Part shown: positions 4,037-33,774 of the stretch, one piece after another | Layout: every line of letters starts with the position of its first letter | How positions within the stretch are numbered: the first letter of the stretch is position 1 | Source of the DNA: Casimicrobiaceae bacterium | GTDB lineage: Bacteria; Pseudomonadota; Gammaproteobacteria; Burkholderiales; Casimicrobiaceae | Assembly: GCA_025056355.1 (NCBI GenBank) | Contig: JANWWI010000001.1 | Span: 124,001-188,000 of the forward strand | Direction: 5' to 3' | Length of the DNA: 64,000 bases | Made by a program: the position numbers and the translations under genes | The notes under the pieces: generated by a model | The model's input: only the letters and a program-made list of their open reading frames with translations | Told to the model about the DNA's origin: nothing | Database searches by the model: none

Positions 4037-6205
4037 ATGGGTCAGGCGGGCGGAGGGCCGGTTTCGGGGGAAAACCGCTGGTCTGCGCCCTTGGGGCGAA
4101 GGCCCGACCGGCCTGGCCGCACCGAGGTGATTCGTGCGGCCAGAGGCGCTTTAGTTGCCGCGGCCTCGGCGCTTGTTGCTGCCTGGAGCTTCGCCTCGGA
4201 GCTGTTTTGGCCGGCGACAACGGCGATTTCGACGCCTCGGTCGCAACAGGCGCAGGAGGTTCATGCCGAACTTGCGATCCTGGCAACCGCCGATCTGCAC
4301 GCTCGGGTGCTTTCCTTCGACTACGACAAGTTGCGGCCGGAGCCGAGCTATGGCTTTGAGCGCACCGCAAGCTTGATTCGCGCCGCGCGGCGAGAGTTTG
4401 CCAACAGCTTGCTCTTCGATGTCGGCGACACGATCGAGGGCAGTGCCCTGGGCGACTTCGAGGCGCGTGTGCGTCCGATCGGCTGCCAGGAAACGCTCAC
4501 GATCTACCGCGCGATGAAGGCGCTCGGGTATGACGCCGGTACGCTCGGCAACCACGAGTTCAACTACGGGCTTGCCTTCCTCGCCCGGGCCACCGGGCAG
4601 ATGTTTGATGTGACGCTTCGGCCGGGCGATGGCCCCTTGCCAGAGACGCGCTGCCGCGGGCCGGGCTTTCCGCTCGTGCTTGCGAACGTCGTGTCGGCGA
4701 AAACCGGGCAGCCGCTTTTCCCGCCGTATGTGATCCTCGAGCGTGAGCTTGAGGCCAAGACGCCCGCGGGTCAAAGCCTCAAGCGACCGCTTCGCATCGG
4801 GGTCATAGGCTTCGCCCCCCCGCGCATCCTGGAGTGGGACAAGCGCTGGCTCGACGGGGTCGTGCAGACGACCGATGCGCTAGAGGCCTTTCGCCGCTAC
4901 GAGCGCGAGATGCGAGCAAGGGGGGCCGAGTTGATCATCGCGCTCGTGCACAGCGGGCTTGATGCGCGGCCCTATAGCGCGACGATGGAAAACTTTGCCT
5001 GGCATCTGGCCCAACAGGGCGGCATGGATGTGCTTTTGCTCGGCCACGCCCATCGCCGGTTTCCCGATCCCGAAGGCCCCATTGCGCGGTCGCAGTTGCC
5101 TGGGGTCGATGCCGCAAGGGGGTTCGTGCATGGCGTGCCTGCAGTGATGCCCGGGTTTTGGGGGCAGGCGCTCGGGGTGGTGCGGCTGCAACTTCGCTGG
5201 CGTGGCCACGCGCAAGCCCCGGCCGAGATCGTGCGCGAGGCCACGCGGGTCGAGCTGCGCCTGACGGTGGCTGCGGACGGACAGCCGGTTGCGGCCGACC
5301 CGGAAGTCGAGCATCTGGCCGCGGCTGCCCATGAACGCGTCGTTGCTCATCTGTCTCAGCCGCTCACTCAGAGCGACTACACGATCTCGACCTACTTTGC
5401 CGATGTGGGTGAGCTCTCGGCCCTTGAGCTCATCAACCGCGCTCAGGCCGCTTACGTGGCACGCGAGCTGCCGCGCGTGCGTCCGGATCTGGCACAGCTT
5501 CCGGTGCTCTCCGCCGCCGCGCCGTTCAAGACGGGCTTTTCCGGGCCGCAGGACTACACCTTCGTTCCCCCGGGGGCAGTGCGCTTGCATCATGTGAGCG
5601 ACCTCTACATCTACCCCAACACCCTTGAGGCGGTCCGCGTGAGCGGGGCGGAGCTCAAAGCCTGGCTGGAAGCCTCGGCGCGGCGTTTCAACCGCATCGA
5701 TCCGAGCAAGACCGAGCCACAAATGCTCATCGCCGCAGTGCCGGGATTCAACTTCGATGTCTTCACCGACCCCGAACTGCGCTACGAGATCGATGTGACC
5801 CGGCCTCTCGGGGAGCGCATCACGCGACTTGAGTATCGCGGGCGGCCGGTGGCGCCCGAAGACAGCTTCATCGTGGCCACCAACAACTACCGCGCAAGCG
5901 GCGGCGGCGGATTTCCAGGGCTCGACGGCTCGAAGACCGTCTTTGCACCGGGTGTTACAAGCCGCGAGGTCGTGAGCTCTTACCTGCGGGGCGAGCCGCG
6001 GCTTACGCGGGCCACTCATGCCAGCGCCCGCTCATGGCGCTTTGCACCGGTGGTAACCAACGGGCCGGTGCTTTTTCGCTCGAGCGCCGATGCGCAGAGG
6101 CTCCTGCCCGAGGCGGGCCTCGAAGGGGTGAGCCTGTGGTCAGCCAGCGAGGGGGTGGAGCGCGGCTACGCGCTTTATCGGATCGACCTGAGTGCCGCCC
6201 GCTAG
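4037..6205 (+). CDS. CpdB-like 2',3'-cyclic-nucleotide phosphodiesterase / 3'-nucleotidase
   Basis: Periplasmic two-domain metallophosphoesterase that releases nucleosides and phosphate from (cyclic) nucleotides. The catalytic domain has TADLHA (D-x-H), GDTIEGS, GNHEFNYG, VHSGLD and LLLGHAHRRFP in the order expected of the 5'-nucleotidase/CpdB superfamily, and the C-terminal substrate domain has NNYRASGGGGFPG. A hydrophobic segment (about residues 35-50) looks like the signal peptide, preceded by a longer-than-usual basic leader. A TTG sits immediately before the ATG at 4037; ATG is preferred because GGAG lies eight bases upstream. CpdB is favoured over UshA by the cyclic-phosphodiesterase-like length and motif wording, but sequence reading cannot fix the exact substrate. 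Confidence 0.85.
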   Translation: MGQAGGGPVSGENRWSAPLGRRPDRPGRTEVIRAARGALVAAASALVAAWSFASELFWPATTAISTPRSQQAQEVHAELAILATADLHARVLSFDYDKLRPEPSYGFERTASLIRAARREFANSLLFDVGDTIEGSALGDFEARVRPIGCQETLTIYRAMKALGYDAGTLGNHEFNYGLAFLARATGQMFDVTLRPGDGPLPETRCRGPGFPLVLANVVSAKTGQPLFPPYVILERELEAKTPAGQSLKRPLRIGVIGFAPPRILEWDKRWLDGVVQTTDALEAFRRYEREMRARGAELIIALVHSGLDARPYSATMENFAWHLAQQGGMDVLLLGHAHRRFPDPEGPIARSQLPGVDAARGFVHGVPAVMPGFWGQALGVVRLQLRWRGHAQAPAEIVREATRVELRLTVAADGQPVAADPEVEHLAAAAHERVVAHLSQPLTQSDYTISTYFADVGELSALELINRAQAAYVARELPRVRPDLAQLPVLSAAAPFKTGFSGPQDYTFVPPGAVRLHHVSDLYIYPNTLEAVRVSGAELKAWLEASARRFNRIDPSKTEPQMLIAAVPGFNFDVFTDPELRYEIDVTRPLGERITRLEYRGRPVAPEDSFIVATNNYRASGGGGFPGLDGSKTVFAPGVTSREVVSSYLRGEPRLTRATHASARSWRFAPVVTNGPVLFRSSADAQRLLPEAGLEGVSLWSASEGVERGYALYRIDLSAAR

Positions 6206-9480: not shown

Positions 9481-9781
9481 GCGCCGCGCATTGTGCCTGG
9501 AACGCATTGCAAGCCGTAGTAGGAAGCGGGCTGCCCATCCGCGATCAGCCCGTCCCCAAAGATTCAAGCTCGCGGTCCGGTCGCAAGCGCGCCTCCGGGC
9601 GCCACGGGACGAAAACAACGGCCGCTTCTTTTACGCGCTGCGCCGGTAGCGCGCTTTCCCCGTATGCGGGCGTACGGGAACCCGGTCGTTCCCGCACGCC
9701 GAGCCGAGGCTCAAGTGTGTTGCCGGCCGCGGGTGCGTTGCTGAGCGTGTGCGCTCACGCGTGCGTGCGGCCGAGGAGGTC
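9481..9781. other. Intergenic region, no gene seen
   Basis: About 300 bases between the yqaA-like gene and the cytochrome c gene. It holds an imperfect hairpin at 9675-9694 (CGGGAAC/GTTCCCG, six-base loop) that could end transcription from the oxidase operon, though no T-run follows on the minus strand. I see no coding sequence. Confidence 0.4.
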
Positions 9782-10117
9782 TCACGAGCGACGCCGGGCT
9801 TGCGCGAAGTAGGCGGCGATGTTTGCGATGTCGGCATCCGAGAGCGGCTTGGCCATCGCAGTCATCGCCGGGTCGTTTCGGCTTCCGTCACGGTAGGCGC
9901 GAAGCGACTTTTCGAGGTAGATCCGATCCTGGCCGGCAAGATGCGGTGTGCCGGGGATTTTCGACACGCCGTCTTCACCATGGCAGGCAAAACACGTGGC
10001 GGCGCGTTTTTTCCCGGCGCCGACGTCGGCGGGCGCGTTGGTCGGCATGGAAGCTTCGAGGGCCGGCGCCGCAAAGACCAAAGCAATCGCGATGCTCAAG
10101 AGGGCAGAAGGCTTCAT
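9782..10117 (-). CDS. Soluble class I cytochrome c
   Basis: A 111-residue secreted protein: signal peptide MKPSALLSIAIALVFAAPALEA, then CFACH (residues about 42-46), the CXXCH heme c site, and a methionine in AMTAMAKPLSD as probable sixth ligand, with the C-terminal helix SDADIANIAAYFAQ typical of cytochrome c4/c553 domains. It would be periplasmic. As the last gene after the two CydA-like subunits (36-base gap) it is a good candidate electron donor to that oxidase. Confidence 0.85.
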   Translation of the reverse strand: MKPSALLSIAIALVFAAPALEASMPTNAPADVGAGKKRAATCFACHGEDGVSKIPGTPHLAGQDRIYLEKSLRAYRDGSRNDPAMTAMAKPLSDADIANIAAYFAQARRRS

Positions 10118-10153
10118 GGCAAGACTCCTTTTGAAAAGGCAACCCGCCTCCGC

Positions 10154-11380
10154 TCAAAGGAAGCTGTTGCGGACCCAAATGACGATGCCGTAGGCGAAAA
10201 ACACGGTAATCCACGCAAGCAGGACGATGTTGGCCCACGAGGCAAGGCGTGCGGTCGTGCGCTCGGCGTTGGCATCAAACAGCCCTGCCACCCGGCCGCT
10301 GCGGTAAAGAAGCGTCACATAGAAGCCACCGACCAGTCCGCCGATCCCGAGCAGCGTGGAGACAAAGAGCACGCCGCTTGGGATGTCCCAGTGCACCGGG
10401 TACTGGGCAATGTCATAGCCGTGGGGCCTCATGTGCGCCACACGGATGATCTCGCGCCACAGCGAGAGCACCCCGAGGACGAGCAGCGATGCGGCATATG
10501 GCAGGTAGCCTTGCGCATCAAGCGGCCGCCGGGCCACCCAGGCCGTCATGGCGACGATGCTGAGCACAAGCAGCCAGCCGACTGGATGTTGAAGCAGTCC
10601 CAGCTGCGAGGGCTGGCCGAGTTGCCAAGCAAGCAGCGGCATGAGGCTCAAGCCAAAGCCCCACAGCGCAATCTGCCTGCCAAGGGCACGCACACGGTCG
10701 AGATAGTGTCTCGGCTTGTCCGAGCGCACGGAGAAGTACTGCGCGTAAGCGAGGAGGAACAAACCGATGGCCGGCGCCGAAAGGGCGATCATGAAAGCAA
10801 AGCGCGGCCAGTCGATCGCATGCAGATGCCGGCCGCTGGTGTCAACCACCCCGCCGGGGGCGTACCACTCCATCCAGCGCTCCGGGAAGAGCTGCTGGTA
10901 GGAGAGGGCATGCATGATGAGCCCATCAAGCAAGAAGAGCCCTAAACCGAGCCAGGCATAAACGCCGATGTGGCGCTTGGCCCCGGGCTTGTTGCCGAAG
11001 TAGAAGGCAAACCAAAGGCAGTAGGCGATGGTCAAGGTCAAGATAAAGCCCATCGCCCAGCTCGCCGAGAGGATGTTGGAGGTGTACCACTGCGGGTCGT
11101 AGATGACCTGAGTGAACAGCAGCGGTGCTACGCCGGTGACGATGAGCAGCGAGACGCCGACCTTGGCGACTTTGGTCATCGCCACCGAGAGTGGCACCCA
11201 GAACTCGGGGTCGCCTCGCCGGTGGAAGGCGTAGATGGCGAGCGCGGCCGCCCCGAGCGTCAGGTGCACGAAGGCGATGTGAATGATCCAGGTGAGCACA
11301 TAAAGCACCTGGAAGACAACCGGGTGCGCCGGCACACCGGCCGGGTCGCGCATCGCATTGAGAACACTTCCGATGTCCAT
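10154..11380 (-). CDS. CydA-like oxidase membrane subunit (second subunit)
   Basis: A 408-residue polytopic membrane protein. Near the N-terminus IIHIAFVHLTLG (residues 32-43) aligns with the first helix of CydA, where a histidine ligates heme b595, and the neighbouring subunit has the equivalent IHVVASHTSVG, so the two look like diverged copies of one another. I see no GRQPW-type quinol motif and no cytochrome c motif. This matches the CydB-less branch of the cytochrome bd superfamily, in which two CydA-like chains (CydA and CydA') form the complex. It lies five bases downstream of the cytochrome-c-tailed subunit. Confidence 0.7.
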   Translation of the reverse strand: MDIGSVLNAMRDPAGVPAHPVVFQVLYVLTWIIHIAFVHLTLGAAALAIYAFHRRGDPEFWVPLSVAMTKVAKVGVSLLIVTGVAPLLFTQVIYDPQWYTSNILSASWAMGFILTLTIAYCLWFAFYFGNKPGAKRHIGVYAWLGLGLFLLDGLIMHALSYQQLFPERWMEWYAPGGVVDTSGRHLHAIDWPRFAFMIALSAPAIGLFLLAYAQYFSVRSDKPRHYLDRVRALGRQIALWGFGLSLMPLLAWQLGQPSQLGLLQHPVGWLLVLSIVAMTAWVARRPLDAQGYLPYAASLLVLGVLSLWREIIRVAHMRPHGYDIAQYPVHWDIPSGVLFVSTLLGIGGLVGGFYVTLLYRSGRVAGLFDANAERTTARLASWANIVLLAWITVFFAYGIVIWVRNSFL

Positions 11381-11385
11381 GGGCT

Positions 11386-12804
11386 TTACTCCTTCGTGGT
11401 GCGTTGTGCGACAACTGCGCGCTCTTTGGCACGCTGCTCGGCGATTCTGCGCTCAACATCCTCGCCGCGGTTGACCGCGGCCAAGTAGTGCGCCAGAGCG
11501 CGCACCTCGTGCTCGGGCAGGTCGATGCGCGGCATGTAGGGCTGTGTGCCGTGCTTGAGCGCGCCGTTCAGGAACGCGGCGATCAAATCCTCATCCGTGG
11601 CACGGTGGAACTTGTCCGGCAAATTGCGAAGCGGCGCGCCGGGTTCGAGTGCATGGCAGTTCGAGCAGGCGGTCTTGGCCAGCAGTTGACCGACCTCAAG
11701 CTGGTTGTTCTCGGTGAGCGTGCGAAGCCGCGCCGGGATCCACGGATGGAGTTTCAGGTAGCCGTGTTCGGCCAGGCGATCGACCTCAGCGACGATGTTT
11801 TTGCCCGGCACATCGCGCGCGATGATTTGGTTGCTGTAGATGTACTGCCCGGCCACGAAGGGCTTGCGCATCGATTCGCGCATCCGCTCTTCGGGCCATA
11901 CGCCCATGAGGGAGACATAGGCAAAGACGGCCACGGCCAAACTCGTATAGATGCGCTGCGGCCTCCACCAGGCAAAAAGCAGCCACAAGGTGGCCACCAC
12001 GAACACCGACACCATGCCGGCGGCATACTGCGGGCGCAGATGGGCATTGAGCATCACGAGGGCGTTGTAGGGCAGCGTCTGCAGGTAGTAGATGAACATC
12101 ATCACCGCGAAGAGCCCGCCCACAAGACCGATGGGGGCCAACATCCGCACCACACTGCGGCGCAGCGCCTCGTCCTTCAGACGGCTTGCGACCATGAGGC
12201 CCACGATCACGGCCATCACAAACATGGCGCCAGTGCGCGTGCCAAGGTGCGCGAAGAAGTTCAGGTTGTAGAAAGCATCGTTCGTCGACCCGGTGCGATA
12301 CCAATCGTCGTTGCCGGGCCACATCATGAAGGAGAGGATCCCGACGATCAGCAACATCGTGGCCCAGGAGGCGAGCGCAAAGCTCCAGCAAAGCTTCATG
12401 TGGGTCTTGAGGTCAATCTTGCCGATCAGGTAGACGAGCGCGTAGACGCCGATGACCTCGACGACGAAAAACACCCACTCCGCGGCCCACACCCAGACAA
12501 AGTTGTGAATGAGACCGCCCACGCCGCGGGGGCTTGCCACGGTGATCGAGTACCAAATGCCCGGGCCGGTGATGGAGCCGATGATGTAGGAGAACACGAG
12601 CAAAAAGACCCCGTACTTCTTGACGAAGTCCATGAGCTCGGGTCGGTTGTCGCGCCAGGCCTTGGTGGCCAGCAGCGCAAACAGAAACGAGGCGCCGACC
12701 GAAGTGTGCGAGGCCACCACATGGATCGTGGCGATGATCCCCATCATCCAGGCGGTGCCGATCTCGGGGACGTAGAACTGCGGGTAGAGCCCAAGCCATT
12801 CCAT
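11386..12804 (-). CDS. Cytochrome bd-type oxidase subunit I fused to cytochrome c
   Basis: A 472-residue protein: about nine membrane helices, then a periplasmic cytochrome c domain. IHVVASHTSVG (residues 27-37) has the paired histidines of the CydA first helix; EWVFFVVEVIG resembles the CydA glutamate helix; CSNCH at 380-384 is the heme c site with a likely Met ligand in PYMPRI near 424. In canonical CydA a Q-loop with GRQPW binds quinol; I cannot find it, which suggests that electrons enter through the c heme. Transcribed after a GbsR-type regulator and before a second CydA-like subunit; no CydB, CydX or CydDC is nearby. Confidence 0.75.
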   Translation of the reverse strand: MEWLGLYPQFYVPEIGTAWMMGIIATIHVVASHTSVGASFLFALLATKAWRDNRPELMDFVKKYGVFLLVFSYIIGSITGPGIWYSITVASPRGVGGLIHNFVWVWAAEWVFFVVEVIGVYALVYLIGKIDLKTHMKLCWSFALASWATMLLIVGILSFMMWPGNDDWYRTGSTNDAFYNLNFFAHLGTRTGAMFVMAVIVGLMVASRLKDEALRRSVVRMLAPIGLVGGLFAVMMFIYYLQTLPYNALVMLNAHLRPQYAAGMVSVFVVATLWLLFAWWRPQRIYTSLAVAVFAYVSLMGVWPEERMRESMRKPFVAGQYIYSNQIIARDVPGKNIVAEVDRLAEHGYLKLHPWIPARLRTLTENNQLEVGQLLAKTACSNCHALEPGAPLRNLPDKFHRATDEDLIAAFLNGALKHGTQPYMPRIDLPEHEVRALAHYLAAVNRGEDVERRIAEQRAKERAVVAQRTTKE

Positions 12805-12917
12805 AAGAAGCGCTCCTTACTCTGATTCAGCACAGACTGGCCAAAGCGCCCAGATGGGCCAACCGGCGGTCGACACCTGTGCGCCCAAACGGTTGAATCC
12901 GCATCGCTTGTCTTGTC
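12805..12917. promoter_or_regulatory. Leader between regulator and oxidase genes
   Basis: A 113-base gap. On the minus strand AAGGAG precedes the oxidase start. A CTGATTCAG near-palindrome lies at about 12815-12823. No FNR- or ArcA-like box stands out. Confidence 0.3.
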
Positions 12918-13535
12918 CTAGCCATCGGTACCTGTCTCGGATCGTTGAGGCGGATGCGCCGGGTTGTCGTCCTTGGCTGCACCCGACCCGGCAAGCCATT
13001 CGCCCGCCCGCTCCTTGAGCACGACCAGCTTGCCGATCCGGCTGCCCAGGCTCATGAGCTTGACCAGCGTCTCGGGCGAGAGCTTTTGCAGCTCATCGAA
13101 CCATCGGCTGGCCATTTCGCAGAGCTCGTACATCTCGGTCATGCGCTTGAGCGCGAAGGCATCTTCGGGATTGCTTGAACCCTCAAGCAGCGCCTGACGC
13201 AGCATGGACAGCATCGGCTCAAGCTCCCGCCGCCGCCGCTCGGCCGCGATCGCTCGAAACATCTCCCAGACACTGTCGAGGGCGCGGTAGTAGTCGCGCC
13301 GATCGCCCGGCGTGCGGGTGACCCGCAGCAGGTTCCAGGATTCGAGCTCCTTCAGGCTCATGCTGACGTTTGAGCGCGAGATCCCCAGGGTCTCCGCGAT
13401 CTCGTCGGCATGCAGAGGCTGCGGGGCGACGTTGAGCAGGGCGTAGATCTGCCCAACCGTGCGGTTGACCCCCCAGCGGCTGCCCATTTCGCCAAAGTGG
13501 GCGATGAAGTCGGACATGAGCGGTGTGAGTTTCAT
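12918..13535 (-). CDS. GbsR/MarR-family transcriptional regulator
   Basis: A 205-residue protein. Residues about 20-95 form a MarR-like winged helix (NRTVGQIYALLNVAPQPLHADEIAETLGISRSNVSMSLKELESWNLLRVTRTPGDRRDYYRA) and the rest is a helical GbsR-type dimerisation region. GbsR relatives repress nearby transport or redox genes. It is the first gene of the strand run that includes the oxidase, with a 113-base gap, and a dyad lies at its own promoter, so autoregulation and control of the oxidase are likely. The signal it senses cannot be read from the sequence. Confidence 0.82.
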   Translation of the reverse strand: MKLTPLMSDFIAHFGEMGSRWGVNRTVGQIYALLNVAPQPLHADEIAETLGISRSNVSMSLKELESWNLLRVTRTPGDRRDYYRALDSVWEMFRAIAAERRRRELEPMLSMLRQALLEGSSNPEDAFALKRMTEMYELCEMASRWFDELQKLSPETLVKLMSLGSRIGKLVVLKERAGEWLAGSGAAKDDNPAHPPQRSETGTDG

Positions 13536-13544
13536 GGCTTCCGC

Positions 13545-13566
13545 AATTTCAGGAATGATTGAAATT
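13545..13566. promoter_or_regulatory. Dyad operator candidate upstream of the GbsR-type gene
   Basis: AATTTCA, eight bases, TGAAATT: a perfect 7-base inverted repeat 10 bases before the regulator start codon, in unusually A/T-rich sequence for this window. The size fits a MarR/GbsR dimer site, so autoregulation is inferred. Confidence 0.5.
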
Positions 13567-13670
13567 TATGATAGATCGGCAAGGAATGCAAGAGGGCGGA
13601 GGCGAGCGAAAGAGGAGGTCACGCCCAAAAAGCGCGGGCGGCGTTTTCGACTTCTTACGGTGGGAGGGGG

Positions 13671-14216
13671 CTAGCGGACGGTGCGGCTTGGTTCGAGCGC
13701 CTTGAGCGCGGCGGCGAGGCGGTCGGGCCCTGCGCCCTGGACGTTGGCATAGGCGATCCCGTGCGCATCCAGCGTGGTGCGTAGCAGCTGGTCGACGGCG
13801 GCACGCGTCTCGGGCCCGTCGCGCTGGATGCCGTCGGCGATCCACGGCAGATCCGGCGCGCAAAGCAGTGTCAGATCGAAGCGCCGCTGGAGCCTCAATC
13901 CACGCTCAACGAGCGAGTGATCGCCGAATACCTGGATGCTGTAGAGCGCGGGCATGAGCGCGGTGGTGTCGGCAAATACCCAGGCGAGGCGGCGCTGTTG
14001 AGCCTCTGCCCGTGCGGCAAGGATCGTGAGGTGTTGCATCTCGGCGATCAGCGCTTGCTCTTCGCGCCGCGGCGTACGGCCACGCGCATCGCAAAACGCC
14101 CGCAGGTATTCCGGCACCCAGAGCCCGCCGCAGCGCTCAGCCAGGGCTTGCGCGAGGGTCGTTTTGCCGGTGCATTCGGCCCCGAGGAGCGCGACCAAGC
14201 GCGGGGGCTCACGCAT
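13671..14216 (-). CDS. NadR-like P-loop kinase, predicted thiamine-salvage kinase
   Basis: A 181-residue P-loop protein resembling the ribosylnicotinamide-kinase domain of NadR. GAECTGKTT (residues 12-20) is the Walker A motif, and WVPEYLRAF and WVFADTTALMPALYS match the NadR kinase pattern. It lacks the NadR N-terminal adenylyltransferase. It overlaps the end of the PnuC-type gene by eight bases, in an operon led by a TPP riboswitch, so the likely substrate is thiamine (trapping it as thiamine phosphate) rather than nicotinamide riboside. That assignment is inference from context; homology alone would say NadR. Confidence 0.7.
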   Translation of the reverse strand: MREPPRLVALLGAECTGKTTLAQALAERCGGLWVPEYLRAFCDARGRTPRREEQALIAEMQHLTILAARAEAQQRRLAWVFADTTALMPALYSIQVFGDHSLVERGLRLQRRFDLTLLCAPDLPWIADGIQRDGPETRAAVDQLLRTTLDAHGIAYANVQGAGPDRLAAALKALEPSRTVR

Positions 14217-14811
14217 GGGCGAGTTGCCCTCTCCAGCGCACAAGGCCCCAGATCGCAAGGGCAAAGAAGATCGCATAGAGGATTGCCGTGAGCCAAAGCG
14301 CTTTGTAGAGAAACAGTGCGACGCTTGCCGCATTGACCACAAGCCAAACCCACCAGTTCTCGATGAACTTGCGGCCCAGAAGCACGGTTCCCACCACACT
14401 GCCGGCGGTGACAAAGGCATCGGCAAGCGGCACATCGGAATCGGTCGCCTGCGCAAGCAGCCAGGCAATCGCAGCCCAAAGGGCAAGCCATGCGGCGGCC
14501 GCAATTAGCCGCCCGCCGCGCGTGAGAGCCGCGACCCGCAACGGGCCAGTCTCATGCCTTCGGCGGCCGAAGAGCCATTGCCACCAGCCCCAAAGCGCGG
14601 CCCCGGCAAAGAAGAGGTTGACCGCCGCCTCGCCGTAGAGCTTGCTGGCCGCGAAAAGCCACACGTAGAGCAGGCTTGCGAGAAAGGCAAGCGGCCAGGC
14701 CCAGTGCCGCTCGCGCACCTGTTGCACGATGCAGGCGAGCGCAAGGGCAAAGGCGAGCAGCTCGAGCCGGCTGACCGTGTTGCCCCAAAGCTCAAACGCC
14801 GGCTCGAGCAT
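14209..14811 (-). CDS. pnuT: PnuC-family permease, probable thiamine transporter PnuT
   Basis: A 200-residue protein with about seven membrane helices. GWWQW (in the WGWWQW stretch) and ENWWVWLVVNAASVALFLYK are the conserved aromatic motifs of PnuC transporters. PnuC itself carries nicotinamide riboside; PnuT members carry thiamine and are recognised by TPP-riboswitch control. Here a riboswitch and a TonB receptor lie upstream and a NadR-like kinase overlaps downstream, which supports thiamine facilitated uptake coupled to phosphorylation. Starts 24 bases after the receptor stop. Confidence 0.82.
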   Translation of the reverse strand: MLEPAFELWGNTVSRLELLAFALALACIVQQVRERHWAWPLAFLASLLYVWLFAASKLYGEAAVNLFFAGAALWGWWQWLFGRRRHETGPLRVAALTRGGRLIAAAAWLALWAAIAWLLAQATDSDVPLADAFVTAGSVVGTVLLGRKFIENWWVWLVVNAASVALFLYKALWLTAILYAIFFALAIWGLVRWRGQLAHA

Positions 14812-14835
14812 GTGCGCTCTCCCTGCGCCTGGCGC

Positions 14836-17091
14836 TTACCAGCGGTGTGTGAGCGAAATGCGCAGCGTGCGCGGGCTGGTCGGGAACAGATAGACCCCGC
14901 CCCAGTAAGTGGCCGGCGCCTCGCGCCAACCCACGCGATCGAAGAGGTTGCTGACCGCCACGCGCAGCTCGCTCGTGCCAAGCGTGTGCGACCAGCGGTA
15001 AGTCGCCCCAAGATCGAGTCGCGTGAGCGCAGGAAGCCGCGGGCTGCCCGGCGCTTCGACAGGCTTGCCGCTCTCGTGGGTGAGCAAGGCATCGACGCTC
15101 AACTCGGGCAAGCTTGCGAAGCGATGGTGGGCAAAGGCTGCAAGCTTCAGGCGCGGCACGTTGGGGGCGCGCAGACCGAGGCGTTGCGGATCCAGCGAGC
15201 GCACGACCTCGGCCTCCAGGACGGTTGCCGAAAGATGCACCGAGGTGTGGGACTCGATGCGGCCAGAGACTCCGAACTCGATGCCGCGGTGGCGCTGAAG
15301 CCGGGCGTTGGCCACCCGCAGCAGCCGCTCGGCACTTGCGGGCGCGTCTTCCGCCGAAGGCTTTCGCAGATCGAAGGCAGCCAGCGTGGCGGCGAGCCGC
15401 GGACCCAGGCGCCACTTCATCCCGGCCTCCCACTGCCGGCTGCGCGCGGCAGGCAGCACGCTGCCCGCATTCGCATACAGACTCGGGCGGTTGGGCACCA
15501 CCTCGGCCTCCACGCCTTCGCCCCACGAGAGGTAACCCATCAAGCCAGGCACGCTCAAGAACTCATGCGCAAGACCAAGCCACGGCGTGGTGAGTTGCTG
15601 TTCGAGCCGAACCGCGCGTCGACCGTCCGAGCGGGCGCTTGCGCGGAGGAGCCAGGTGGCGTTGGCCCCCCAGAAAAGCGTGCTTGAAAGCGCGTCAAGG
15701 CGACTTTCGCCGCGCACCGATAGGCTTGTGGCGCGTTCATCGCTGTTGGTGTTGCGGTCCCCCTTGTCGGGGGCCGCTGGCACCGGGGTGGGCCGAAACG
15801 CGTTGATCGTACCGGCGAAGTTGTACGCCTGAAACGGCTCAAGCCGCGCCCGGGCCGCCCAGTGCTCAACGCCCACGGTCAGCTGGGTCGGAAGCCCCGG
15901 CAGGGAGAGCGTGCCACGAGCCTCGGCAAGTGCGCTGCGAAGGCGCCGGCGTTCGTTTTCGCTTCGGTAGTCGTAGAGATCCACCGAGCCATCGGCGCAC
16001 CAGCCGGGGTAGACCGGAACCGCCCCCGCCGAGCAGCCATCCGGAAAGGCCACCCGATCATCGAGACGGTTTCTCTGCTCGCGTGCCGCGAGGCGCAGCG
16101 TCCAGCCCCCCTCGAGGGCCTGGGTCCACTGCCCGCCCAGAAGCGTGTTCTCATAGAGCATGGGCAGCGACCAGGCTTGAGCGTTCAAGTTGTCGCGCGG
16201 CGTGAGCACCGAAGCGCCGGGCGAGCGGGTGCGTGCAAGCCTGGGAAGCGTTTCACCCACTCCGTCGCCGTCGGCATCAAGCAGCCCGAAACCCGGCACC
16301 GAAGGCTGCCGATGGCGCAGCCACTCGGCCTCAAGCTCAAGGGTTGTCTTCGGGCTGACGCGATGGCGAAGCGCCGCATGCACAAGCGCTCGGCGACCTT
16401 CGGCCCGATCCACCGGCGGGTCGAGCCCTTCGGCGGCGAGGTTGACCCGCACTGCGGTTGCGCCGAAGAGCTCGTTGCCGTCCAGATGCAGCCGCCGGTT
16501 GCCGTGCTCGGTGAGTTCGAGCGTGGCCTCACCCGTGCGCCCCGCAAGCGGCCGCTTCGGCACGAAATGCACAAGACCCCCCGGCGCGGCCACGCCGGTC
16601 TGCAGGCCCGCCACGCCCTTGAGCACCTCAACGCGCTCAAGGCTTTCCGTGGCAAGCGGGCTGAGCGGCTGCCACGGCAATCCCGCGCGGCGGTAATTAC
16701 CGAGCGAGCGCAATTCAAAGCCGCGCACCACCAGGTTTTCGAGGTAGCCCACCGCGTTGTAGCTGTCGGCGAGCGCTCCATCCAAGCGCGCGGCGGCCGA
16801 TAGCGTGCGGCTGCCGGTGAGCTCAAGCAGGTCGCGCGAAAGCACGCTCACGCTCTGCGGCGTGCGCTCAAGCGGTGCGGAAAAGCCGCCCACATCGGCC
16901 GCTTCGGCTTCAAGTACCGGTGTGGTTTTGCCCGTGAGGGTCACCGGTTCGGTACGAAGCGTGGCCGGGCTCTCTTGGGCCTGTGTCGCAAGCGCAACAA
17001 GCGATGCCGCAACCGCGGCGGCAAGCCGTCGGCGCTTGAGCGCGGGCGAAGGCGTTGGTTGGGAGGTCGGGACAAAAAGGCACGTTGCCAT
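14836..17091 (-). CDS. TonB-dependent receptor, predicted thiamine uptake
   Basis: A 751-residue outer-membrane receptor: signal peptide ending near ALATQAQES, plug with FSAPLERTPQSVSVLSRDLLE and ESLERVEVLKGVAGLQTG followed by GGLVHFVPKRP, then a barrel ending ISLTHRW. The plug wording resembles siderophore receptors of the FhuA/FecA branch, but the gene follows a TPP riboswitch, which marks it as a thiamine-regulon receptor. ATG 17091 is chosen because AAGGAG lies seven bases upstream; the longer frame would include part of the riboswitch leader. Confidence 0.88.
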   Translation of the reverse strand: MATCLFVPTSQPTPSPALKRRRLAAAVAASLVALATQAQESPATLRTEPVTLTGKTTPVLEAEAADVGGFSAPLERTPQSVSVLSRDLLELTGSRTLSAAARLDGALADSYNAVGYLENLVVRGFELRSLGNYRRAGLPWQPLSPLATESLERVEVLKGVAGLQTGVAAPGGLVHFVPKRPLAGRTGEATLELTEHGNRRLHLDGNELFGATAVRVNLAAEGLDPPVDRAEGRRALVHAALRHRVSPKTTLELEAEWLRHRQPSVPGFGLLDADGDGVGETLPRLARTRSPGASVLTPRDNLNAQAWSLPMLYENTLLGGQWTQALEGGWTLRLAAREQRNRLDDRVAFPDGCSAGAVPVYPGWCADGSVDLYDYRSENERRRLRSALAEARGTLSLPGLPTQLTVGVEHWAARARLEPFQAYNFAGTINAFRPTPVPAAPDKGDRNTNSDERATSLSVRGESRLDALSSTLFWGANATWLLRASARSDGRRAVRLEQQLTTPWLGLAHEFLSVPGLMGYLSWGEGVEAEVVPNRPSLYANAGSVLPAARSRQWEAGMKWRLGPRLAATLAAFDLRKPSAEDAPASAERLLRVANARLQRHRGIEFGVSGRIESHTSVHLSATVLEAEVVRSLDPQRLGLRAPNVPRLKLAAFAHHRFASLPELSVDALLTHESGKPVEAPGSPRLPALTRLDLGATYRWSHTLGTSELRVAVSNLFDRVGWREAPATYWGGVYLFPTSPRTLRISLTHRW

Positions 17092-17181
17092 CGAAACACT
17101 CCTTGTTGGTCGATGGCAGGGTGTGAGGGCGGCGGGGATGCGCCGGAGTGCTCGCACCGGAGCGTGGCGCTTCGCCGTCCA

Positions 17182-17270
17182 CGCTTCCCTGCGCAAGCAT
17201 TACCTTGGTCAAGTTCCGGGGTATGTTCTCAGCCGAGCGCCTCATATTCAAACCGCTCAGCACCCCCAGC
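17182..17270 (-). promoter_or_regulatory. TPP riboswitch (THI element)
   Basis: Read on the minus strand, the leader holds the conserved THI-box blocks in order: GGGGGTGCTGAG, then GCTGAGA, then ACCCC followed by GAACTTGACCAAGGTAATG and GCGCAGGGAAGC. These match the helices P1-P5 signature (CUGAGA and the ACCUGAUC-UGGAUAAUGC / GUAGGGA blocks) with minor changes. It lies about 90 bases before the receptor ATG, so it controls the receptor, PnuT and kinase, probably by translation or termination in response to thiamine pyrophosphate. Confidence 0.92.
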
Positions 17271-32315: not shown

Positions 32316-33074
32316 CTACGGTTTCCTGGCGTCTTCAAACAGCTTGCTCAAGTCTTCAGCGAATCCTGACCGGAAGTCGGCAATTCGGGCTAAGAACTCG
32401 TTGACCGCACTCAGGTCAGGTGTTGCGTTCTCTGGTTCGACGAGGACGGACTGACGGAACCTTCGGTAATGCTTGCGAAGCGTGATGAGGCCAACGCCCA
32501 GACGGGCGCATGCGGTGGTTATCTCTTCGTACGCATCGTCCGAGTCTTCTGGATGCGCGGGGATGACCAGGTATGCGTAGTTGGCGAACCGACGATGCGC
32601 GGCCGCCTCGTAGGCCGAGTTCAGATTCCAGCCGTTGGCTGCTTTTAATTCGTACGTCGTGACAATCGTTTCGGATGTTCTCAAATACTGGTGATTCCGA
32701 ACTTCGACCGTTACGATGTCTGGATTGCGCCACATACCGCGAAGTCGCATCGCTGAAATGTCGGCCACTACCAAATTGAGTTCGTCGTCCTCTGCGTTAC
32801 GTCTTAACGTCTGAACAAAAGGCTCGTAGAGGTCCGATTCCTTGCCCGATGGCTGCTTTGCGGTGCTAACAGCCGAGGTCTTTGATTCCAAAAGACGAAT
32901 ACCACCACCGCGACCACGTGCCGAGGCGATCAAGCCTTCGTCAAGCAGCGCTTTCTTGATCTCGGCATATCTCTCATCGGAAAGACCTAAATGGTCTTGG
33001 ATGCGAGCGTTGGACGCTCGCCCGCCTAGTTGCTCTAGAAGTCTTAGAACCCGCTCTTTGTCTGTCGGTCTCAT
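32316..33074 (-). CDS. Winged-helix protein with predicted PD-(D/E)XK-like domain
   Basis: A 252-residue protein. Residues 1-65 resemble a winged helix (DKERVLRLLEQLGGRASNARIQDHLGLSDERYAEIKKALLDEGLIASARGRGGGIRL). Residues about 100-180 carry RNPDIVTVEV, then TTYELKAANGWNLNSAYEAAAHRRFANYAYLVIP, in which D119 and E142-x-K144 fit a PD-(D/E)XK nuclease core. This combination occurs in defence- or restriction-associated genes, but I recognise no named family. Base composition looks lower in GC than its neighbours. It sits directly after a shortened livF, pointing to insertion by transfer. Start ATG 33074 is a reasonable choice; an upstream in-frame reading runs into livF. Confidence 0.65.
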   Translation of the reverse strand: MRPTDKERVLRLLEQLGGRASNARIQDHLGLSDERYAEIKKALLDEGLIASARGRGGGIRLLESKTSAVSTAKQPSGKESDLYEPFVQTLRRNAEDDELNLVVADISAMRLRGMWRNPDIVTVEVRNHQYLRTSETIVTTYELKAANGWNLNSAYEAAAHRRFANYAYLVIPAHPEDSDDAYEEITTACARLGVGLITLRKHYRRFRQSVLVEPENATPDLSAVNEFLARIADFRSGFAEDLSKLFEDARKP

Positions 33075-33108
33075 TCCGGTGATGAGGTAAGGAGTTGACG
33101 TGAAGGCG

Positions 33109-33774
33109 CTAAACGAGTTCGTTGGCAACGCCCCGTTCGAAGTGAATGACCCGATCCGCCACTGCGCGCGTGAAGCGCTCGTTTTGCTCGGAAAGCAGGA
33201 TGGTGAGCCCTTCGCGCTTGAGTTCGCGCACCGTCTCGGCGATGCGCTCAACCACAAGCGGCGCGAGCCCCTCGGAGGGCTCATCGAGCAGGAGCAGCCG
33301 CGGATTGCCCATGAGCGTGCGGGCAAGCGTGAGCATCTGCTGCTCGCCGCCTGAGAGGGCGCTGCCGGGCCGGTCGAGCAATTCGGTGAGCTTCGGAAAG
33401 AGCTCGAGTACCCGCTCGCGCGTCCAGGGGCGAAGCCGACTGCCCGAAGCAGGCGCCTTGCGTCCGGCCTCCAGGTTTTCCGCCACGGTGAGCTCGGTGA
33501 AGATCCGCCGATCCTCTGGCACATAGCCCACGCCGAGCCGTGCGATGGCATGCGGCGCGAGACCGAGGATCGGCGTACCGTCAAACTCGATGGCGCCCCG
33601 CACGTTGCGGGCGAGGCCCATGATCGCGCGCAGCGTGCTCGATTTACCTGCGCCGTTGCGGCCGGCGAGCACAAGCACCTCACCGGCCGAGACGGAGAAG
33701 CTCACATCGAAGAGCACCTGCGCTCGCCCGTACCAGAGCGAGAGATCGCGCACCGCAAGCAGTGGCGCGCTCAT
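33109..33774 (-). CDS. livF: Branched-chain amino-acid ABC ATPase LivF, shortened C-terminus
   Basis: A 221-residue ATP-binding subunit: Walker A GRNGAGKSS, Q-loop, YVPEDRR, signature LSGGEQQML, Walker B LLLLDEPSEGLAP, H-loop replaced by SEQN as usual for LivF. Typical LivF is about 233-237 residues. Here homology ends at HFERG and the protein closes with VANELV, so about 15 residues of the C-terminal tail are missing. The next gene on the strand is the probably foreign wHTH gene. ATPase core motifs are intact, so function may survive. Starts four bases before the livG stop (ATGA). Confidence 0.88.
   Translation of the reverse strand: MSAPLLAVRDLSLWYGRAQVLFDVSFSVSAGEVLVLAGRNGAGKSSTLRAIMGLARNVRGAIEFDGTPILGLAPHAIARLGVGYVPEDRRIFTELTVAENLEAGRKAPASGSRLRPWTRERVLELFPKLTELLDRPGSALSGGEQQMLTLARTLMGNPRLLLLDEPSEGLAPLVVERIAETVRELKREGLTILLSEQNERFTRAVADRVIHFERGVANELV

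Follow-up and report, generated by a model that had tools for sequence, protein, structure and literature searches.

A four-gene operon from a Casimicrobiaceae bacterium, most likely gained by horizontal transfer, probably specifies a terminal oxidase of the OR-C branch, that is, a cytochrome c-dependent O2 reductase of the cytochrome bd type that is kept under CydE-type repression. The operon lies in a 64,000-nucleotide stretch of genomic DNA (the window), to which all positions refer unless another locus is named. As judged from the list of open reading frames, its genes follow one another head to tail on the minus strand and encode a regulator, two membrane proteins (chains A and A') and a cytochrome c. 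The relevant features are the following.

9483-13670, no strand: segment most likely inserted, relative to same-genus genomes, as delimited by the homology breakpoints
9669-9700, minus strand: GC-rich inverted repeat after the last gene, with 13-bp arms, a 6-nt loop and no T-tract
9782-10117, minus strand: soluble class I cytochrome c with signal peptide, 111 aa, last gene (Pfam Cytochrom_C, 2e-9)
10154-11380, minus strand: chain A', CydA-fold membrane protein of 408 aa without a cytochrome c domain (AF2 pLDDT 91, CydA Z 26.5)
11386-12804, minus strand: chain A, CydA-fold protein of 472 aa with a C-terminal cytochrome c fusion (AF2 pLDDT 86, CydA Z 27.7, conservation 51/51)
11464-11703, minus strand: cytochrome c domain of chain A, residues 368-447 (VIA-align match to cytochromes c)
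12918-13535, minus strand: GbsR/MarR-family regulator, probably of the CydE/CioR type, first gene (Pfam MarR_2, 4.7e-13)
13545-13566, no strand: probable CydE-type operator AATTTCA-N8-TGAAATT, an exact dyad 9 nt before the start codon of the regulator

The initial annotation had delimited the system at 9782-13566, the exact bounds set by the last stop codon and the far edge of the dyad. Its description of a GbsR-type regulator with an operator-like dyad and of a soluble cytochrome c after the second chain holds. The intergenic gaps measure 113 nt (regulator to A), 5 nt (A to A') and 36 nt (A' to cytochrome c); given these short gaps and the shared direction, a single transcript is plausible. 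The two gaps around A' leave no room for a CydX gene, whose absence had also been noted. A scan for sigma-70 promoters found none in the operon region, and a PHROGs search returned no match. The inverted repeat at 9669-9700 is a possible terminator, on which the terminator scan gave no call. The signal peptide of the soluble cytochrome c was recognized by eye, and the protein is probably an electron carrier to chain A.

Chains A and A' had been described as mutually similar and CydA-like. BLASTP found no similarity between them, but the description did hold at the level of profiles (probability 96%, E 3e-9, with profiles built from 34 homologues of A and 33 of A') and at that of the fold. The AlphaFold models of A (51 sequences, mean pLDDT 86) and A' (46 sequences, mean pLDDT 91) both had CydA as their top match in the PDB, with Z 27.7 over 302 residues for A and Z 26.5 over 345 residues for A'. 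The next structural families, namely alternative complex III (ActC/ActF) and PsrC, scored Z 14.1-17.7, so that CydA led by about 9-10 Z units for both chains. In every bd entry listed by VIA-align, A' matched the CydA chain better than CydB.

Neither chain passed any cut-off in Pfam or NCBIfam. The Pfam CydA family (PF01654) scored 9.0 bits on A, against a cut-off of 26.2 (E 0.62), and gave nothing on A'; this failure argues against a canonical CydA, but not against membership in the bd superfamily. Searching the PDB by sequence retrieved CydA at E 4.8 for A and no CydA match for A', and hhalign of both chains against four canonical CydA sequences aligned TM1 sensibly, at probabilities of 10-23%. 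Since sequence similarity to CydA thus stays below threshold, the superfamily argument is carried by the fold comparison: on the strength of the models, A and A' have the CydA fold and belong to the cytochrome bd superfamily. The mapping of ligands from CydA onto the two chains is approximate outside TM1 and TM8.

In E. coli cytochrome bd, heme d is held by His19, heme b595 by Glu445, and heme b558 by His186 and Met393 (PMC8585947), while Glu99 of CydA faces heme d (PMC6853902). The profile alignment places His19 opposite His28 of A and His34 of A'. Seven residues of A (H28, E109, E116, E310, R313, K314 and P315) are invariant in 51/51 sequences, and the last four recur unchanged in the distant copies from Thermus and Agrobacterium. 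The end of TM8 reads E310-S-M-R313-K314-P315 in A and E445-Y-G-R448-Q-P450 in CydA, with identical spacing. The initial annotation had reported the lack of a GRQPW motif; the literal string is indeed absent, but its core persists in A as the invariant E310-x-x-R313-K314-P315. In TM3, E109 and E116 of A lie seven residues apart, and Glu99 and Glu107 of E. coli eight; as TM3 of E. coli CydA was reported to contain an inserted Leu101 (PMC6853902), the shorter spacing in A need not be anomalous. The comparison with CydA therefore bore out the expected conservation of active-site ligands, with A retaining the full set of the superfamily as putative heme ligands. Chain A' keeps only His34 (equivalent to His19) and E310-x2-R313 (equivalent to E445-x2-R448), and is without the TM3 glutamates. 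Its invariant residues, in 46/46 sequences, are H34, H157, E310 and R313; His157 is peculiar to A'.

The Q-loop, which spans 136 residues in E. coli (PMC6853902), is absent, the TM6-TM7 loop being 3 residues long in the model of A. When we scanned the conservation of the TM7 Met and the nearest His, the b558 His/Met pair proved not to be conserved in A: residue 186, the nearest His to the b558 ligand His186, is H/Q/M in 27/6/1 sequences, and no Met in TM7 reaches 90% conservation. The C-terminal cytochrome c that had been recognized on one of the chains is present on A, with an invariant CxxCH at residues 380-384 and a nearly invariant axial Met424; Pfam Cytochrome_CBB3 matched it at 2e-5, just short of the cut-off. 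The fused and soluble cytochromes c, together with the loss of the Q-loop and the lack of a conserved b558 pair, point to cytochrome c rather than quinol as the likely electron donor, as had been suggested from the start.

The genomic context is compatible with such a donor. No match to CydB (PF02322) was obtained in the operon or anywhere in the 98%-complete genome, so the absence of CydB claimed for the operon extends to any partner encoded elsewhere, and canonical CydA (PF01654) had no match in the genome either. We detected one COX1 of the heme-copper oxidases, accompanied by a CoxB-like subunit with CxxCH (hence caa3-like), and a bc1-type cytochrome b is also encoded. The operon thus appears to specify the only detected bd-type oxidase of a cell that should have reduced cytochrome c on hand. 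Canonical CydA was found in 20/40 relatives searched.

These elements can be assembled into a working scheme. A and A' would form a pseudo-symmetric heterodimer, with A' occupying the position of CydB as a structural partner. Electrons from bc1 would reach the fused cytochrome c of A, with or without the soluble cytochrome c as an intermediary, and would pass straight to a high-spin di-heme site in A (His28, Glu109/Glu116, Glu310/Arg313), where O2 would be reduced to water; a quinol site and heme b558 would be dispensed with. The regulator would bind TTTCA-N8-TGAAA and repress its own operon, derepression occurring when a bd-type oxidase is needed, which by analogy with CydE and CioR may mean low O2, or sulfide, NO, cyanide or metal stress.

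The regulator does lead the operon, as the initial annotation had it, but it is not private to this enzyme, being of a CydE/CioR type that otherwise precedes canonical cydAB. It shares 53-57% identity with a homologue that adjoins canonical CydA in 9/12 loci of relatives. Its identity to plasmid-borne regulators is 47-58%; three of these precede cydAB or cydDC-cydA (the fourth, from Cupriavidus, is unannotated). Canonical cyd genes are shown nearby for 12 of the 13 related regulators. The dyad at 13545-13566 has perfect 7-bp arms and an 8-bp spacer, and the exact sequence TTTCA-N8-TGAAA stands upstream of the window regulator and of 13/13 related ones. Among the other OR-C-linked regulators, three have this sequence with at most one mismatch and the remaining one is truncated by the edge of its contig. 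The same core occurs in site 1 of Alishewanella CydE, TATTTCAGAAATTTCTGAAAGTTCA, which was identified by DNase footprinting (PMC6096048). In a shuffle control over 64 kb, 45/100 shuffles yielded one match when 3 mismatches were allowed, and on these grounds a chance match was at first judged possible; that view was overturned by the conservation in 13/13 cases and by the published footprint. CioR, also of the GbsR type, is a direct repressor of cioRAB, and in vitro Zn or Fe releases it (PMC11837568). From these sequence relationships, the window regulator is probably a CydE/CioR-type repressor with a CydE-type operator.

In a tree of 18 sequences, which includes one long branch, the OR-C-linked regulators clustered together, separate from those linked to cydAB, with 96% bootstrap support. 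Besides the window, a homologue of the regulator occurs at 4/83 homologous loci. Two divergent OR-C operons, on plasmids of Methylosinus and Agrobacterium, are instead followed by RegB/RegA-type genes, whose best matches are RegB/ActS/PrrB and RegA/ActR/PrrA, below the curated cut-offs. With CydE-type neighbors in some cases and RegB/RegA-type neighbors in others, different redox or oxidase regulators adjoin the same type of enzyme.

Some of these loci have further peculiarities. In Hydrogenophaga sp. (L006), two CydE-type dyads, at 4579 and 4880 of that locus, lie ahead of the OR-C regulator, the first of them just before a small open frame with a good ribosome-binding site. On plasmid pMSC49c of Methylosinus sp. 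C49 (L001, 8001-17365), the OR-C operon and the RegB/RegA-type genes are located between feoB and mbnC/M/F; as the latter are methanobactin biosynthesis genes, the setting hints at a link between copper scarcity and a copper-free oxidase. The conjugative plasmid pLN1-183666 of Agrobacterium tumefaciens (L003, 5675-10539) carries an OR-C pair that has diverged very far (28% identity for A) with its RegB/RegA-type genes, beside traR/traM; two small open frames, one of 321 bp ahead of A and one of 177 bp behind A', could encode accessory subunits.

Genes for A and A' are adjacent in 83/83 homologous loci (80 genome contigs and three plasmids) from Proteobacteria to Thermus, hence their pairing is not due to chance. 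A homologue of the soluble cytochrome c directly follows A' in most proteobacterial loci, and no third gene besides cytochrome c was found consistently linked at the homologous loci. Carriers include Tepidimonas, Hydrogenophaga, Paraburkholderia, Thiomonas, Thiomicrorhabdus, Halothiobacillus and methanotrophs, as well as Sulfurimonas/Sulfurospirillum/Arcobacter, Thermocrinis and Thermus. In a tree of the A family alone, the window protein groups with Tepidimonas (80-81% identity).

Within the host family, chain A was found in 1/64 genomes, namely that of the window. The flanking genes are common in other genomes of the genus (yqaA in 15/16, pnuC in 16/16), and in the closest of these, G020, yqaA and pnuC are 0.6 kb apart with a nadR-like gene between them. 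Homology between the window and G020 breaks off where yqaA starts (start codon, 9482) and is picked up again inside nadR (gene at about 13671-14205). Judging from these breakpoints, the operon most likely arrived by horizontal transfer, as an insertion of 4.2 kb that separates nadR from yqaA; its loss by all the relatives would be a less simple explanation. We noticed no repeat or transposase at the ends of the insertion, and its GC content is not unusual.

Elsewhere in the window, a minus-strand cluster at 13671-17196 comprises genes for a TonB-dependent receptor, PnuC (NMN_transporter) and an AAA_28/NadR-like kinase, in an arrangement conserved in G020; it looks like a system for nicotinamide riboside uptake and salvage. 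Further along, a minus-strand open frame at 32316-33683 (455 aa), whose GC3 is lower at 0.66, gave no Pfam match at 1e-6.

Other functions can be conceived for this system. The enzyme might draw on cytochrome c to reduce NO, H2O2 or an incompletely reduced oxygen product, serving detoxification and not respiration. Canonical bd enzymes, under the same type of regulator, do protect against NO, sulfide, cyanide and H2O2 (PMC11837568, PMC6096048), and many OR-C carriers are sulfur oxidizers or low-O2 dwellers. We nevertheless deem this unlikely, given that the active-site ligands are those of the O2-reducing CydA, that a control equivalent to that of cydAB points to a terminal oxidase that can be replaced, and that no detoxification gene is consistently linked at the homologous loci. 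There is also a small chance that a functional high-spin heme site exists in A' as well as in A, since both keep the TM1 His and the TM8 E-x2-R and A' has the invariant His157; such a double-sited enzyme would be fed by cytochrome c and exchangeable with CydAB under one repressor, with a chemistry other than the simple reduction of O2 to water.

A retained quinol oxidase activity, with quinol bound at another site and the cytochrome c domain acting as a regulatory element or electron sink, seems very unlikely to us. The Q-loop and a conserved b558 pair are missing, CxxCH is invariant in every aligned A, and the operon supplies a soluble cytochrome c partner. Against this, archaeal CydAA', which has no CydB, reportedly uses quinol according to the 2021 work of Murali, a precedent in favor of such an activity. 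Moreover, all bd enzymes biochemically characterized up to 2021 are quinol oxidases (PMC8509429). Finally, the second-ranking structural matches could be taken to mean that the two chains belong, as subunits, to an alternative complex III or to a polysulfide-reductase-like quinone membrane module. We give this almost no credence in view of the much higher CydA scores of both chains, of the invariant TM1 His and bd-specific E-x2-R-x-P (the latter in A), and of the lack of any Act or Psr catalytic subunit among the conserved neighbors.

A cytochrome c-dependent bd-type O2 reductase would be of some consequence, because a bd enzyme with a non-quinol donor was still to be found as of a 2021 review (PMC8509429). 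The operon represents a compact candidate: it has four genes, brings its own cytochrome c and lies in a genome where we detected no further bd enzyme, and the predicted operator provides a way to address its expression. That the CydE switch is shared argues independently that, for the cell, the OR-C enzyme is a functional substitute for cytochrome bd. Plasmid records label A and A' 'cytochrome c' and 'hypothetical protein'; with such labels, and with Pfam and NCBIfam missing both chains, OR-C oxidases have likely been overlooked in genome-based statements on respiration, for example on sulfur oxidizers and Campylobacterota.

As to its placement, we take OR-C enzymes to be members of the bd superfamily without a quinol site and with a cytochrome c domain on the CydA-like chain. 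The CydA fold, missing Q-loop and fused cytochrome c of A agree with that definition, which follows secondary papers, and by the same descriptions the window enzyme is probably a member of the OR-C branch. The initial annotation had favored a CydAA'-type family; it was right as to a CydB-less enzyme of the bd superfamily, but OR-C is the better class, the term CydAA' being applied to an archaeal quinol enzyme and also to the OR-N enzymes of nitrite oxidizers.

The superfamily is divided, after Murali et al. 2021, into qOR, OR-C and OR-N (PMC8509429, PMC13189123, PMC10839748). Only qOR keeps the quinol site, and the other two are inferred users of cytochrome c (PMC8509429, PMC10839748), none of them biochemically characterized by 2021 (PMC8509429). 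With the OR-C branch, which is named in PMC13189123, PMC10839748 and PMC11707229, the window enzyme shares the CydA-like core, the lack of a quinol site and of CydB, the inferred cytochrome c donor and a wide bacterial distribution; by secondary descriptions we found no difference in the enzyme itself, and the window adds the CydE-type regulator and operator. Among open-licence papers, we found no report of such a regulator and operator on a non-quinol bd enzyme. The OR-N CydAA' of Nitrospirota/Nitrospinota likewise has two CydA-like chains, no CydB and a proposed cytochrome c donor but is assigned by the papers that describe it to a separate clade (PMC10839748, PMC12342949). Canonical bd enzymes (qOR; E. 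coli CydAB 6rko/6rx4, Geobacillus 5doq) have in common with the window enzyme the fold, the TM1 His, the TM3 glutamates and Glu-x2-Arg-x-Pro, whereas the latter lacks the Q-loop, a conserved His186/Met393 pair and CydB and has a C-terminal cytochrome c. Like cydEAB of Alishewanella and cioRAB of Chromobacterium violaceum, the window operon begins with a GbsR-type repressor gene co-directional with a bd-superfamily oxidase, and its TTTCA-N8-TGAAA is that of the footprinted CydE site; its genes, however, are A, A' and cytochrome c instead of those for a quinol-oxidizing CydA-CydB, and the OR-C-linked regulators form a separate group. New here are the probable 4.2 kb insertion between nadR and yqaA and the CydE/CioR-homologous regulator with its matching dyad.
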